This document shows, piece by piece, positions 24,348 to 29,950 of a stretch of DNA of 32,295 nt. Source of the stretch: a virus. The position numbers were made by a program, and so were the translations under genes. The notes under the pieces were generated by a model. That model saw nothing but the letters and a program-made list of their open reading frames with translations, had not been told where the DNA came from and did not search any database. The DNA is taken from positions 1 to 32,295 of IMG/VR virus record IMGVR_UViG_3300035034_000385, one strand, 5' to 3'. Position 1 is the first letter of the stretch. Every line of letters begins with the position of its first letter.

Positions 24348-25049
24348 ATGGCTGCACTAGAACAACACTTTTACCATAATTCTATAAGAACATACACTGC
24401 CGCATTTGGTACTCTCTTTAATAACATATCAATTGTTAGAAAAGATGGTAAGCAGATTAAGATTCCTTTGTCATATTCATCAAGACAGAAATTTGATATT
24501 GCACAAAAGTATGAAAACGATGATGCCCATTACCAGATTAAATTTCCTCGTATCGGGTTTGTTATGACTGGATGGAATCGTGACACTACTAGAATCCAGA
24601 ACAAACATGACTACATGTACCAACAAGGCGTGGATAGAACTATAGTTGGTGGCGTCAACAAACAACTTAATAGGGTTCCCTACATTTTTAACTACGAAGT
24701 TACTGTTGGAACTAAGAACTTGGACGATATGTTTCAGATTATGGAACAAATCGCGGCGTGGTTCAATCCATCATTGAATGTCAATATTACTGAGAATCCA
24801 GATTTAGGCATTGAAACATCATTGAATGTCAAGATGACTGATTCAACTTTGGCTGATGATTATCAAGGTATGATGGAAGATGAAAAGACTCTCATTTCTA
24901 CATTCAATTTTGAAGTAGAGGGGTTTTTGTATATGCCTTCAAGTGATCAGGGAGTTATTAGAACTATCACGCTTAATTACTACGATCTTAATGACCCTGA
25001 CACAATATTAGAAACGGATATCATAGGCGAAGGTGTTATTCAAACATGA
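24348..25049 (+). CDS. 15: tail sheath terminator/stabilizer gp15
   Basis: The 233-residue protein (T4 gp15 is 272 aa) begins MAALEQHFYHNSIRTYTAAF and GTLFNNISIVRKDGKQIKIP, a highly conserved start of the gp15 family, followed by RVPYIFNYEVTVGTKNLDDM in the middle. It forms the hexameric ring on top of the finished tail that contacts the neck. GGAGTG precedes the ATG. It ends in an ATGA overlap with gp16. The identification is secure. Confidence 0.92.
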   Translation: MAALEQHFYHNSIRTYTAAFGTLFNNISIVRKDGKQIKIPLSYSSRQKFDIAQKYENDDAHYQIKFPRIGFVMTGWNRDTTRIQNKHDYMYQQGVDRTIVGGVNKQLNRVPYIFNYEVTVGTKNLDDMFQIMEQIAAWFNPSLNVNITENPDLGIETSLNVKMTDSTLADDYQGMMEDEKTLISTFNFEVEGFLYMPSSDQGVIRTITLNYYDLNDPDTILETDIIGEGVIQT

Positions 25050-25537
25050 GCAAAAGAGATAAAATAAATAGAGATATAGAAGCCTTTATCGGTATCGAGT
25101 ATGACGTAAATTCTGAGCTAGATACGCTCAACGATGAGGGAGAATCCTCGCGTGAAAGCTTTGATCTTGTTGAATACACACCTGTAGAGTCTAAAGTCCC
25201 CGCAGAACAGCGTGACAGCGACGTATACGATGATTACAACTATACCAGAACCGTGCTTAGGGGTCTGATAGAACGTGGTACAAGCGCTTTAGAAGGCTCT
25301 CTCATGCTTGCTAAAGAATCTGAGCATCCAAGGGCTTTTGAGGTATCCAGCACTCTTATGAAGAATATCTCAGATATGAGTAAAGACCTTATGGCTCTAC
25401 ACAAACACTTAGATGAAGAAACTGGTTCTACTGGTAAAGTTGCAAAGACTGTACATAACACTCAAAACAATTACTACAATGACGAGAAACAACCAAAGGG
25501 CGTCGATGATCTGCTTGATGATTGTGATGACGACTAA
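25046..25537 (+). CDS. 16: small terminase subunit gp16
   Basis: The 163-residue protein has the length of T4 gp16 (164 aa). An acidic N-terminus is followed by the conserved helical core DVYDDYNYTRTVLRGLIERG and SEHPRAFEVSSTLMKNISDM, then SKDLMALHKHLDEE, which matches the T4 pattern with DDYGVVRRN and DSPRHMEVFATLM. The oligomeric ring recognises phage DNA and stimulates the gp17 ATPase. The C-terminus is Asp-rich. It overlaps gp15 and ends two bases before gp17. Confidence 0.9.
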   Translation: MSKRDKINRDIEAFIGIEYDVNSELDTLNDEGESSRESFDLVEYTPVESKVPAEQRDSDVYDDYNYTRTVLRGLIERGTSALEGSLMLAKESEHPRAFEVSSTLMKNISDMSKDLMALHKHLDEETGSTGKVAKTVHNTQNNYYNDEKQPKGVDDLLDDCDDD

Positions 25538-25539
25538 TT

Positions 25540-28278
25540 ATGCAAATTCATCCATTTAATATAAGAGAGTTTGTAAAAGACAATAGAACTCTAGTCAAGA
25601 AATACATTAAAAAGAATACCTATGGAATTCGAATTGATGATATTGAGCTTGGCAATGCATACTATTATCAAAAAAATGAACAAATTCTGAATAAGAAAGA
25701 AAAACCAGAATATTCATTAATGCAGAAGCTTGAATATATTAAGTGTATGAAAGATTGTTCGTACTTCACTCAGAAGTATATTAAGATTATTTCTATTGAT
25801 GATGGTGTAATTCCCTTCAACCTATACGATTATCAGGAAGAACTATTAGATAAGTATCAGAACAACCGATTTATTATCACTCTACAAGCCCGGCAAACAG
25901 GTAAGATGATTGATCTTGATACACCAATCATGACACCAAACGGATTTGTTAAAAATGGTGATCTTAAAGTTGGTGATACAATTTATGGTAGAAATGGAAA
26001 GAAGACTGATGTTACGTTTATAAGTGAACAACGTAATGATATGAATCAATATGAACTTATATTTGATAATGGACAAAAAATAAAGGCGTGTGGTGAGCAT
26101 CTATGGGCGTTTAAATCATCAAACAAAAATAAATCAGAATATGTTCGTAATACAGAATACATGATTTCTGAGTTTGAAAATGTTAGAAAATATAAAACTC
26201 CCGGTAGCTTGTGGATTGATATTACAAAACCTTTGGAATTTGAAGCAAAAGAAGTTCCTATTGATCCATACACACTAGGTTTGTGGCTTGGTGATGGTGA
26301 TAATCAAGGCGGTTCTATCACTGGTCATATTGATGATTTTAACTTTTATAATTCGATATTACCAATTACGAAGGGTAAGTTTTCTCTGGATAAAAGAACT
26401 GAATCCACGGGTAAATTTAGAATTGATGGATTACATAAAAATCTCAGATTAGAAAACCTAACAAATAACAAACACATTCCTGATAACTATATCTATAATG
26501 ATATAGAAACACGAATTAATCTCATTCGTGGATTAATGGACTCCGATGGGTATTGTGCTAAAAATGGATCATGCGAATTTTACCAAAAATCAAAATCTCT
26601 TATTGATCAAGTCAGGTTAGTATTATCTACATTGGGTATAAAAACCACAATCAGAGAAAAATATGTCAAGGGGTATAATGATCCATATTATACTTTGGTG
26701 TTTTGTGTACCTGTTGATAAATTTGAACTATTCAAATTACCAAGAAAACTTGAAAGACAGCATAATTGTAAGTCTCATCCAAAAAATGAAAGAATTTATC
26801 TATCATCATACAAGAAATTAGATGATGATAAAAAGGTTTATATGCAGTGTTTAACTGTTTCTGATGAAGATCATATGTTTTTGTGTGGCGAAACACTGTT
26901 ACCAACACACAATACGCAGACAACCGCTGCTTATATACTTTGGTTCAACACATTCAATGATTCAAAAGACTCTGCTATTTTAGCTAACAGATTAGCACAA
27001 GCACAAGAAATCATGGAACGTGTGCAGATGTCTTATGAAAATCTACCCAATTTTTTGAAGTGTGGTGTATCTGAGTATAACAAGCGTTCAATGAAGTTCG
27101 CCAACTACTCAAAGATATTCTGTGCTACATCCACATCATCTTCTATACGTGGTAAATCTATTTCACTGTTATATATAGATGAGTGTGCCTTCCTACGTAA
27201 TGATATGGCTTTTTATGAATCCACTTACCCTGTAATTACATCTGGTAAGAATTCACAAGTTATCGTGTCATCTACTCCAAACGGGGCGCGTGGGTTGTTT
27301 TACAAGCTGTATACCGAATCCAGAGAAAACATTAACAAATACGTTAACCATAAAGTTACTTGGGATATGGTGCCGGGGCGTGATCTGGAATGGAAACAGG
27401 AACAGATTGCAAATACTTCGCAGGAACAGTTTGATCAGGAACATGAGGTTCAATTTAGAGGGTCAATCAACTCTCTTATATCAGGTAATGTTCTGATGAA
27501 CTTGGTTGAACGTTCACCAGAAGAAATAAAGAACGATGTAAAGATTTATTTTGAGCCGGAAGCTGGTCGTGTATATGCAATGATGGTTGATGTGAGTCGT
27601 GGCCTTGGTCAAGATTATAGTGCATTCGTTGTGTTTGATGTAACAGAAATGCCTTATAGAGTTGTTGCTACATATAGGAATAACAAAATATCCCCATTGT
27701 TATACCCATCTATTATATACTCAACTGCGACATACTACAATGAAGCAATGGTATTAGTTGAGATAAATGATATAGGTGAACAGGTTTCATCTATTTTGTT
27801 TGATGAATATGAATATGAAGAATTATTGATGACTAAATCAATCAAAGGCAGACAAACTATGTGGTTTGGTGCTGATTGTAAGCAGGGTGTGCGAACTACA
27901 ACACCTGTTAAGTCTGTTGGATGTTCGAACATTAAGTCTCTTATTGAGAATGAAAGAATTGAGCTTAACGATAAAACGATCATTGATGAGTTTGGTACGT
28001 TTGTCCCTAAAGGGAAAACCTATAAAGCCGATTCTGGTGCTAATGATGATATGGTTATGTGTTGCGTATTGTTTGGATGGGCAACAACTCAACAATACTT
28101 TAAAGATATGACCAATATAAACACTAGAGAAGACCTAATTAAACAAAGGGAAGATAATGAAGATTTGATGCCCTTTGGATTTATAGATAGTGATGATGAG
28201 GAAATAGAAAAACCAACTAATCCTTGGGGAATTGCAGAAGGGAAAGTTACAAGCGATTCTTTCTTTGATGGGTTTTGA
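25540..28278 (+). CDS. 17: large terminase subunit gp17 interrupted by an intein
   Basis: The 912-residue precursor consists of a 576-residue terminase (T4 gp17 is 610 aa) and a 336-residue intein. The ATPase domain has Walker A split as ARQTGK (ending at K122) and TQTT (from T459), Walker B LLYIDECAF (D547, E548) and the coupling motif SSTPNG. The nuclease domain has MVDVSRGLGQDYSAF, VEINDIGEQV and NDDMVM, matching the T4 triad D401, E458, D542. gp17 pumps DNA into the prohead through gp20 and cuts the concatemer. The unspliced protein lacks a working P-loop, so packaging depends on splicing. Reading frames are intact throughout. Confidence 0.95.
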   Translation: MQIHPFNIREFVKDNRTLVKKYIKKNTYGIRIDDIELGNAYYYQKNEQILNKKEKPEYSLMQKLEYIKCMKDCSYFTQKYIKIISIDDGVIPFNLYDYQEELLDKYQNNRFIITLQARQTGKMIDLDTPIMTPNGFVKNGDLKVGDTIYGRNGKKTDVTFISEQRNDMNQYELIFDNGQKIKACGEHLWAFKSSNKNKSEYVRNTEYMISEFENVRKYKTPGSLWIDITKPLEFEAKEVPIDPYTLGLWLGDGDNQGGSITGHIDDFNFYNSILPITKGKFSLDKRTESTGKFRIDGLHKNLRLENLTNNKHIPDNYIYNDIETRINLIRGLMDSDGYCAKNGSCEFYQKSKSLIDQVRLVLSTLGIKTTIREKYVKGYNDPYYTLVFCVPVDKFELFKLPRKLERQHNCKSHPKNERIYLSSYKKLDDDKKVYMQCLTVSDEDHMFLCGETLLPTHNTQTTAAYILWFNTFNDSKDSAILANRLAQAQEIMERVQMSYENLPNFLKCGVSEYNKRSMKFANYSKIFCATSTSSSIRGKSISLLYIDECAFLRNDMAFYESTYPVITSGKNSQVIVSSTPNGARGLFYKLYTESRENINKYVNHKVTWDMVPGRDLEWKQEQIANTSQEQFDQEHEVQFRGSINSLISGNVLMNLVERSPEEIKNDVKIYFEPEAGRVYAMMVDVSRGLGQDYSAFVVFDVTEMPYRVVATYRNNKISPLLYPSIIYSTATYYNEAMVLVEINDIGEQVSSILFDEYEYEELLMTKSIKGRQTMWFGADCKQGVRTTTPVKSVGCSNIKSLIENERIELNDKTIIDEFGTFVPKGKTYKADSGANDDMVMCCVLFGWATTQQYFKDMTNINTREDLIKQREDNEDLMPFGFIDSDDEEIEKPTNPWGIAEGKVTSDSFFDGF
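25906..26913 (+). mobile_element. intein with LAGLIDADG endonuclease, class 3-like
   Basis: Residues 123-458 of the gp17 precursor. It opens MIDLDTPIMTPNGFVKNGDL, a block A pattern but with Met instead of Cys/Ser, and ends LLPTHN before Thr+1. Block B ends GEHLW (W67 of the intein). Block F reads MQCLTVSDEDHMF, with Cys (C315) at the usual Asp position. Block G has Thr (T334) before His-Asn (N336). W, C and T at these places are the class 3 intein signature, in which the block F Cys is the first nucleophile. Two LAGLIDADG motifs, LGLWLGDGD (124-132) and LIRGLMDSDG (206-215), keep their acidic residues. Boundaries follow from homology of the flanks to Walker A. Confidence 0.92.
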
Positions 28279-28336: not shown

Positions 28337-29950
28337 ATGGATTCTCCTAGTGTAATTACCAGAGAAAAGGATTTGTCATTTTCTATTCAAAGTATAACGT
28401 CAAATGCTACTGGTTATGTCGGGCTTTTTAATTGGGGTCCGGTAAATAAAATATCCACCATCACAACTGGTGAGGGTGAGTTAGTACAACGTTTTGGGGA
28501 GCCTGATAGTCAGACAGCCCTATATTTTCATTCAGCCGCAAACTACATGCTATACAGCGTACCGTTGCGTATTGTGCGTATTGTTGGTGATCTTGCTTTA
28601 AACGCTATCGCTGCTGATGCTGATACCGCTGGTCAAAGTTCAATTCTTGTAGAAAATGAAGAAATGTTTGATGCACTTACTGATGCAACATTCACAATTC
28701 AGGCTCCATCATTCATTGGTCGCTATGCAGGTACTCTAGTTAACTCATTGCGTATCGTTGCTGCTGACTCTACTGGATTTTCTGGATGGGAATTTGAGGA
28801 AGAATTTGATTATGCCCCAACAGGCGATCAATTCAACATGATTGTTATTGATGCTTCTGGTTTAATCACTGGTGTTGTCGGTAGTGTTGTCGAGAAATAT
28901 GAACTTCTTACAAAAATCCAAGGCGATAAAAAAGTTGATGGTACTACGGCTTTTGTTTACGAAGCCCTGAAAAACCAATCAAATTATGTTTATTGCTACG
29001 ATGCAGACCAGATTGTTTTTACCACTGGTGTATATGATACAACTCTAGTTGGTGGTTTTGATGATAATGATGCAGCTAACGCAGATTTTGCAACAGGTTT
29101 TGATCTGTTCGACAATTCTGACACTGTAGATATCATTCGTCTGTTTACCGCTGGTTCTGATATCACTGGTCAAATCCGCGCAATTGATGTATGTGAAAGT
29201 CGTGGTGATGCTGTAGCGTTTGTAAGTCCTGAACTTGGTGATGTGTACAACAACTTAACCGTGATTGCAGATTTGAATGAATTTTTCAATGTCACGCTTA
29301 ATAAAAATACATCCTATGGATTCGCTACTGATAACTGGAAGCTTGTAAATGACAAATATAACGATAAGTCTATTTGGATTCCCTGTGATTCTGATGCCGC
29401 TGGCCTACATTCGCGTGTATTCGTTACCGCAGAGCCTTGGTTCTCGCCCGCTGGTTTGAATCGTGGACAGCTTAAAAACGTTATCAAGTTGGCATATAGC
29501 CCCAATAAAGCACAAAGAGATGGATTGTACAAGTCTTCAATCAACTCTATTGTAGCGTTTCCGGGTGAAGGCACTGTTCTATGGGGTGACAAGACTCTAT
29601 TGAAAGCACCTTCCGCGTTCAACAGAATCAACGTGCGTACATTGTTCATTGTTATTAAACGTGCTATTAGCCGTGCTGCTCGTTATCAGCTTTTTGAGCT
29701 TAACGATAATATCACACGTTCGCTGTTTAGAAATGCCACTGATCAATATCTTGAGAATGTTCAAGGTCGCCGTGGTATTTACGATAAGCGCGTTGTTTGT
29801 GATGAAACAAATAACACGCCACAGGTTATTGACTCTAACGAATTCGTTGGTGATATTTTCGTCAAACCTGCAAAAAGTATCAACGTGATTCGACTAAATT
29901 TTGTGGCCGTAGGCACAGGACTAGACTTCGATGAAATCGAAAACGCATAA
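28337..29950 (+). CDS. 18: contractile tail sheath protein gp18
   Basis: The 537-residue protein (T4 gp18 is 659 aa, so shorter by about 120) begins SPSVITREKDLSFSIQSITS and has GYVGLFNWGPVNKISTITTG and RFGEPDSQTALYFHSAANYM, matching the N-terminal domain of T4 sheath. The C-terminal part with WIPCDSDAAGLHSRV, NRINVRTLFIVIKRAISRAA and FVGDIFVKPAKSINVIRLNF is the conserved sheath core that packs on the tube. Size difference probably reflects missing outer protrusion domains. GAGGT lies 8 bases before the ATG. gp19 follows 14 bases later on the same transcript. Confidence 0.93.
   Translation: MDSPSVITREKDLSFSIQSITSNATGYVGLFNWGPVNKISTITTGEGELVQRFGEPDSQTALYFHSAANYMLYSVPLRIVRIVGDLALNAIAADADTAGQSSILVENEEMFDALTDATFTIQAPSFIGRYAGTLVNSLRIVAADSTGFSGWEFEEEFDYAPTGDQFNMIVIDASGLITGVVGSVVEKYELLTKIQGDKKVDGTTAFVYEALKNQSNYVYCYDADQIVFTTGVYDTTLVGGFDDNDAANADFATGFDLFDNSDTVDIIRLFTAGSDITGQIRAIDVCESRGDAVAFVSPELGDVYNNLTVIADLNEFFNVTLNKNTSYGFATDNWKLVNDKYNDKSIWIPCDSDAAGLHSRVFVTAEPWFSPAGLNRGQLKNVIKLAYSPNKAQRDGLYKSSINSIVAFPGEGTVLWGDKTLLKAPSAFNRINVRTLFIVIKRAISRAARYQLFELNDNITRSLFRNATDQYLENVQGRRGIYDKRVVCDETNNTPQVIDSNEFVGDIFVKPAKSINVIRLNFVAVGTGLDFDEIENA

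Follow-up and report, generated by a model that had tools for sequence, protein, structure and literature searches.

A very probable class 3 intein, bearing a LAGLIDADG endonuclease domain, within the terminase Walker A motif of a T4-like phage

The terminase is an essential protein, and the locus described here raises the question of what a 336-residue insert is doing inside the Walker A motif of its large subunit. The window, by which we mean the whole stretch of DNA analysed (32,295 nucleotides, positions 1 to 32,295 of IMG/VR virus record IMGVR_UViG_3300035034_000385), had been read from its letters as encoding a class 3 intein within the gp17 of a T4-like phage. Following this analysis, we consider it very probable that the insert is a full-length, cis-splicing class 3 (Trp-Cys-Thr, WCT) intein with a LAGLIDADG homing endonuclease, lying between the Walker A Lys and Thr of gp17.

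The interrupted gene 17 and the limits of the insert

The gene and its surroundings comprise the following features.

25046..25537, + strand: gp16-like terminase small subunit, directly upstream of gene 17 (phrog_445/735)
25540..28278, + strand: gene 17 (TerL) precursor, 912 aa and predicted 576 aa once spliced, stop codon included (Pfam Terminase_6N/6C; intein-free homologues L028-L030 and pf16)
25540..25905, + strand: N-extein, 122 aa, whose C-terminal end ...RQTGK opens the Walker A motif
25906..26913, + strand: very probable class 3 intein, 336 aa (empty-site alignment; WCT; PDB profile match to 6rix/6bs8, E ~4e-38; model pLDDT 95.3)
26914..28278, + strand: C-extein, 454 aa plus stop, whose first residue Thr+1 is the Walker A Thr
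28337..29950, + strand: tail sheath (gp18-like), directly downstream of gene 17 (phrog_23)

Gene 17 is an uninterrupted reading frame of 912 codons, and precursor residues 1-122 and 459-912 correspond to a T4-type terminase large subunit (Terminase_6N 4.5e-19, Terminase_6C 3.9e-15), with both the ATPase and the nuclease domains of Terminase_6 present in the order gp16-gp17-gp18. The designation T4-like is confirmed by the neighbouring genes, which are homologues of gp16, gp18 and gp15 and of head-closure, portal and baseplate proteins, and the expected spliced length of 576 aa follows from 912 minus 336. Elsewhere in the window, the minus strand carries two tRNA genes (1135-1212 and 2912-2987; Leu-taa and Met-cat), which are adjoined by glycosyltransferase and alpha-2,3-sialyltransferase-like genes (1218-2531).

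The C-extein was used as a query, and 68 gp17 loci were fetched from IMG/VR. Three of these (L028-L030) share 87% identity with the window gp17 in the N-extein and 78% in the C-extein, and in their alignment, as in that of pf16 gp17, N-extein residue 122 abuts C-extein residue 1 with zero bases between. Because these empty alleles are gapless at the Lys/Thr site (a slash marks the point of insertion), the in-frame insert is exactly M1-N336, with junctions K/M and N/T, and M1 belongs to the intein. The coordinates 25906-26913, originally placed between the Lys and Thr of the P-loop, proved exact. A script check recovered ...LQARQTGK/ on the N-side and /TQTTAAYILW... on the C-side, and the predicted spliced-junction peptide is QARQTGKTQTTAAY. 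At the level of sequence comparison, the empty alleles are direct evidence for the predicted junctions that is independent of any reading of intein motifs.

Other ways of reading the N-terminal border were considered. A junction after the Met is ruled out, since the empty alleles read GK/T with no additional residue, and the empty-site alignment leaves no junction with Cys or Ser, the alternative that had been named as speaking against a class 3 intein. An internal start at Met1, giving a free endonuclease, is unsupported; the upstream CAGGTAAG is no more than the last part of the Thr-Gly-Lys codons, and relatives differ in it (AGGAAAA, GGTAAA).

Splicing residues, fold and class

The residues on which the class assignment depends are located as follows.

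25906..25944, + strand: block A, MIDLDTPIMTPNG, residue 1 being Met instead of Cys/Ser
26098..26106, + strand: block B H65-L66-W67, comprising the base His and the WCT Trp, with Cys62 three residues N-terminal of His65
26848..26850, + strand: block F Cys315, predicted first nucleophile
26905..26913, + strand: block G Thr334-His335-Asn336

M1, W67, C315, T334, H335 and N336 were all found by script where the original prediction had placed them, H65 is likewise present, and the precursor numbering W189/C437/T456 is correct. With the junction fixed by the empty alleles, the replacement of Cys/Ser by Met at position 1 is confirmed. The insert therefore carries Met1 where class 1 inteins have a Cys1 or Ser1 nucleophile, and it combines every residue expected of class 3, namely no Cys/Ser1, a block B Trp, a Cys at block F position 4 and, preceding His-Asn, a Thr at position 5 of block G.

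In the alignment with known class 3 inteins, H65, W67, the Cys of block F and the final Thr-His-Asn all line up, and C315, whose placement outside block F would have spoken against the assignment, falls on the catalytic Cys of 6rix/6bs8. The class 3 DnaB crystal structures even use the identical numbers His65 and Trp67 (PMC7664689, PMC6195587). Class 3 mycobacterial DnaB inteins were the first matches of a single-sequence search against solved structures, and a profile of 40 relatives matched 6rix (3.7e-38) and 6bs8 (4.1e-38) in the PDB, with gp41-1 inteins far weaker (1e-14 to 4e-11; class 1 gp41-1 intein 6qaz, 3.8e-11). The Pfam Intein_splicing model scored below its cutoff on the insert (13 vs 35.8 bits), plausibly because it was built mostly on other inteins and because the endonuclease interrupts the match.

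H65, C315, T334 and Asn336 occur in 101/101 aligned related inteins, and a Cys at residue 1 in a single one of them. W67 is found in 100/101, a figure inflated by the retrieval of part of this set with a pattern that includes the block B Trp; the phage tblastn set, free of this bias, has the Trp in 16/17. Given background frequencies of 1.3% for Trp, 2.0% for Cys and 7.0% for Thr, the near-invariance of H65, W67, C315 and T334 means that the residue set is not due to chance.

Structure prediction of the insert (AlphaFold pLDDT 95.3, pTM 0.93) gave a Hint splicing domain and a LAGLIDADG endonuclease domain. The intein-endonucleases PI-SceI/TliVMA were the best Foldseek matches overall, and the splicing domain matched class 3 DnaB inteins (6bs8/6rix/6riy chains), with a target-normalised TM of 0.80-0.86 in five of six full-length class 3 chain alignments, among matches listed above 0.80. 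In a comparison with viral predicted structures, intein-bearing phage DnaB proteins and terminases matched best. The model points to a hedgehog/intein fold like that of class 3 structures, and together with the residue set it supports the class 3 assignment, for which the splicing chemistry is taken from homology.

Variants of this signature were seen in other terminases. By its sequence, an intein at L149:863-1876 (site PPRH/SKS) is of mixed class 1 and class 3 signature, with Cys1 plus the full W-C-T and a penultimate Met rather than His, and two class 3 inteins (L143, L139) that lie in the P-loop of terminases end in TSN, with Ser for the penultimate His.

Block B of the window intein (26089-26106, including Cys62, His65 and Trp67) reads CxxH and not DxxH. 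Across the 101 relatives, residue 1 is Ala in 67 and Met in 11, and position 62 is Asp in 63 and Cys in 21. All 11 Met1 inteins have Cys62, Met1 appears on two separate branches, each in a Cys62 background, and in class 3 inteins Cys62 goes together with a bulky first residue (Met, Lys, Gln, Arg, Leu). Independent pairs differing in residue 1 amount to only 0-3 of 6 (median p 0.25 for a bulky first residue and 1 for Met1), too few contrasts for significance, so that this covariation is only a lead. In Msm DnaBi1, Asp62 is found near Ala1, with a presumed role in positioning the scissile bond (PMC6195587); the Met1-Cys62 pairing may offer a small handle on how the N-terminal scissile bond is positioned in class 3 inteins.

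The endonuclease domain and the mobility of the intein

The insert matches Pfam LAGLIDADG_3 (1.1e-12) and contains two LAGLIDADG motifs, both with their acidic residues.

26278..26298, + strand: LAGLIDADG motif 1 (GLWLGDG), catalytic Asp130
26527..26550, + strand: LAGLIDADG motif 2 (RGLMDSDG), catalytic Asp214

The embedded homing endonuclease is apparently intact. In one related lineage (L004-L007), motif 1 reads GGGD instead of GDGD (D130G) and every splicing residue is intact, which suggests decay of the endonuclease following homing.

The intein is more alike between phages than the gene that surrounds it. Compared with its counterpart in L008, the window intein has a nucleotide identity of 0.914 and a dS of 0.33, as against 0.759 and 2.5 for the C-extein, and peak conservation (0.91-0.96) spans the first two thirds of the intein. 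Its dN/dS of 0.13-0.18 indicates purifying selection and hence that the intein is maintained. Occupied alleles are interleaved with empty ones in a tree built from 90 gp17 C-exteins, with nine changes, at least six of them forced by well-supported branches; the tree is a quick one with several long branches, and the count is approximate. This sporadic occupancy, with an intein dS far under that of the surrounding gene, identifies a homing intein that has moved horizontally. The intein is clearly mobile, and its endonuclease may cleave intein-free alleles.

Closely related alleles differ in occupancy. L050, which carries a 320-aa intein, shares 93.7% C-extein nucleotide identity with the empty L051, and among L044-L055, whose gp17 C-extein DNA is 84-94% identical to that of L050, only L050 is occupied, the others being empty at that codon. 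These alleles offer a natural pair for a homing test, and the close intein-free alleles of the window gp17 (78-87% protein identity) could be homing targets.

Splicing route, alternatives and known relatives

The proposed route is modelled on experimentally studied class 3 inteins (PMC6195587, PMC7664689, PMC5222942). After translation of the 912-aa precursor the Hint domain would fold, and Cys315, aided by His65 and Thr334, would attack the Lys122-Met1 bond, so that the N-extein is held as a branched thioester. The N-extein would then be transferred to Thr+1, cyclisation of Asn336 with the help of His335 would release the intein, and an ester-to-amide shift would restore RQTGKTQTT and yield the 576-aa gp17 with its P-loop intact. 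Separately, by homology, the endonuclease would cut intein-free gp17 alleles at the Lys/Thr site and repair would copy the intein in. As the insert splits the Walker A motif, unspliced gp17 would be unable to hydrolyse ATP, and that the packaging ATPase is inactive until splicing can soundly be inferred.

Met1 by itself would also suit another chemistry, given that residue 1 is non-nucleophilic in class 2 inteins as well (PMC7664689). We regard it as very unlikely that Thr+1 attacks the N-junction directly and that Cys315 is not the branch point, because the WCT set and H65 are complete and nearly invariant in the family and the closest solved relatives are experimentally class 3 (PMC6195587). 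Inteins can also degenerate, as the lineage that lacks a LAGLIDADG Asp illustrates, and the insert might be a decayed, non-splicing Hint-endonuclease domain, with gp17 broken or tolerated in unspliced form. This is extremely unlikely, since no splicing residue has been lost, the reading frame is open throughout, dN/dS amounts to 0.13-0.18 and an essential terminase would otherwise have its P-loop split by 336 residues.

Conditional splicing, for instance redox-gated via Cys62 or Cys315, would refine rather than replace the class 3 explanation, with the intein timing the start of packaging. H2O2 inhibits the class 3 DnaBi1 via its catalytic Cys (PMC6195587), and position 62, which adjoins residue 1 in the DnaBi1 structure, is Cys here and in the 21 homologues mentioned above. 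DnaBi1, however, uses Cys48 and not position 62, and the intein is absent from many close relatives and hence dispensable, a pattern that fits a selfish element, so that we find such gating very unlikely. That an active site unusual in its combination of Met1 and Cys62 beside Cys315 senses redox or another late-infection cue is decidedly unlikely; if true, protein splicing would switch on the gp17 ATPase and hence packaging.

A full-length class 3 intein thus remains the preferred explanation, and the identification originally made is correct. The accompanying statement that such inteins are uncommon does not hold for phages, as the insert has matches in 736 of 50,697 phage records and 1,701 class 3 inteins, 82.5% with LAGLIDADG motifs, had been catalogued by 2020 (PMC7891396). 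WCT inteins occupy the gp17 Lys/Thr site in at least 35 of the loci fetched, among them RaK2, ECD7 and cyanophage B23; they also occur there in fENko-Kae01 and Slicko01, and L095-L129 all read RQxGK / intein / T or S. With dozens of close equivalents at the same site in other phages, the case is ordinary for its kind. Our literature search turned up no publication that names precisely this class 3 case in gp17, and a first report is not claimed; its value is that of a clean, complete example in an essential phage ATPase, and it corrects the impression of rarity, class 3 inteins being common and mobile in phage terminases.

The mycobacterial DnaB class 3 inteins (MchDnaB1 6rix/6riy, Msm DnaBi1 6bs8), its best solved-structure sequence matches, share the splicing fold, WCT with His65, the Cys in block F and the Thr-His-Asn ending, but they are endonuclease-free mini-inteins in a bacterial helicase (Ala1 in DnaBi1), whereas the gp17 insert has LAGLIDADG, Met1 and Cys62 rather than Asp62. 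Mycobacteriophage TerL1-a inteins lie between the invariant P-loop Lys and Thr, and class 3 inteins are found elsewhere in mycobacteriophage TerL (PMC5050341); the TerL intein of phage Bruin, compared with TerL1-a, has the GK/T site with W, C and T present, although these TerL proteins are of Terminase_1 type and identity is 28%. Escherichia phage ECD7 (Krischvirus, T4-like) and Synechococcus phage B23 share the T4-type gp17, Lys/Thr site, WCT and LAGLIDADG, but differ by Ala1/Asp62 at 34-39% identity. The gp17 inteins of Klebsiella phages RaK2 and K64-1, in whose TerL Hint plus LAGLIDADG were noted in 2017 without an intein class (PMC5259590), and of fENko-Kae01 occupy the same gene and site with WCT and LAGLIDADG at 37-45% identity, but these are jumbo phages and their inteins have Ala1.
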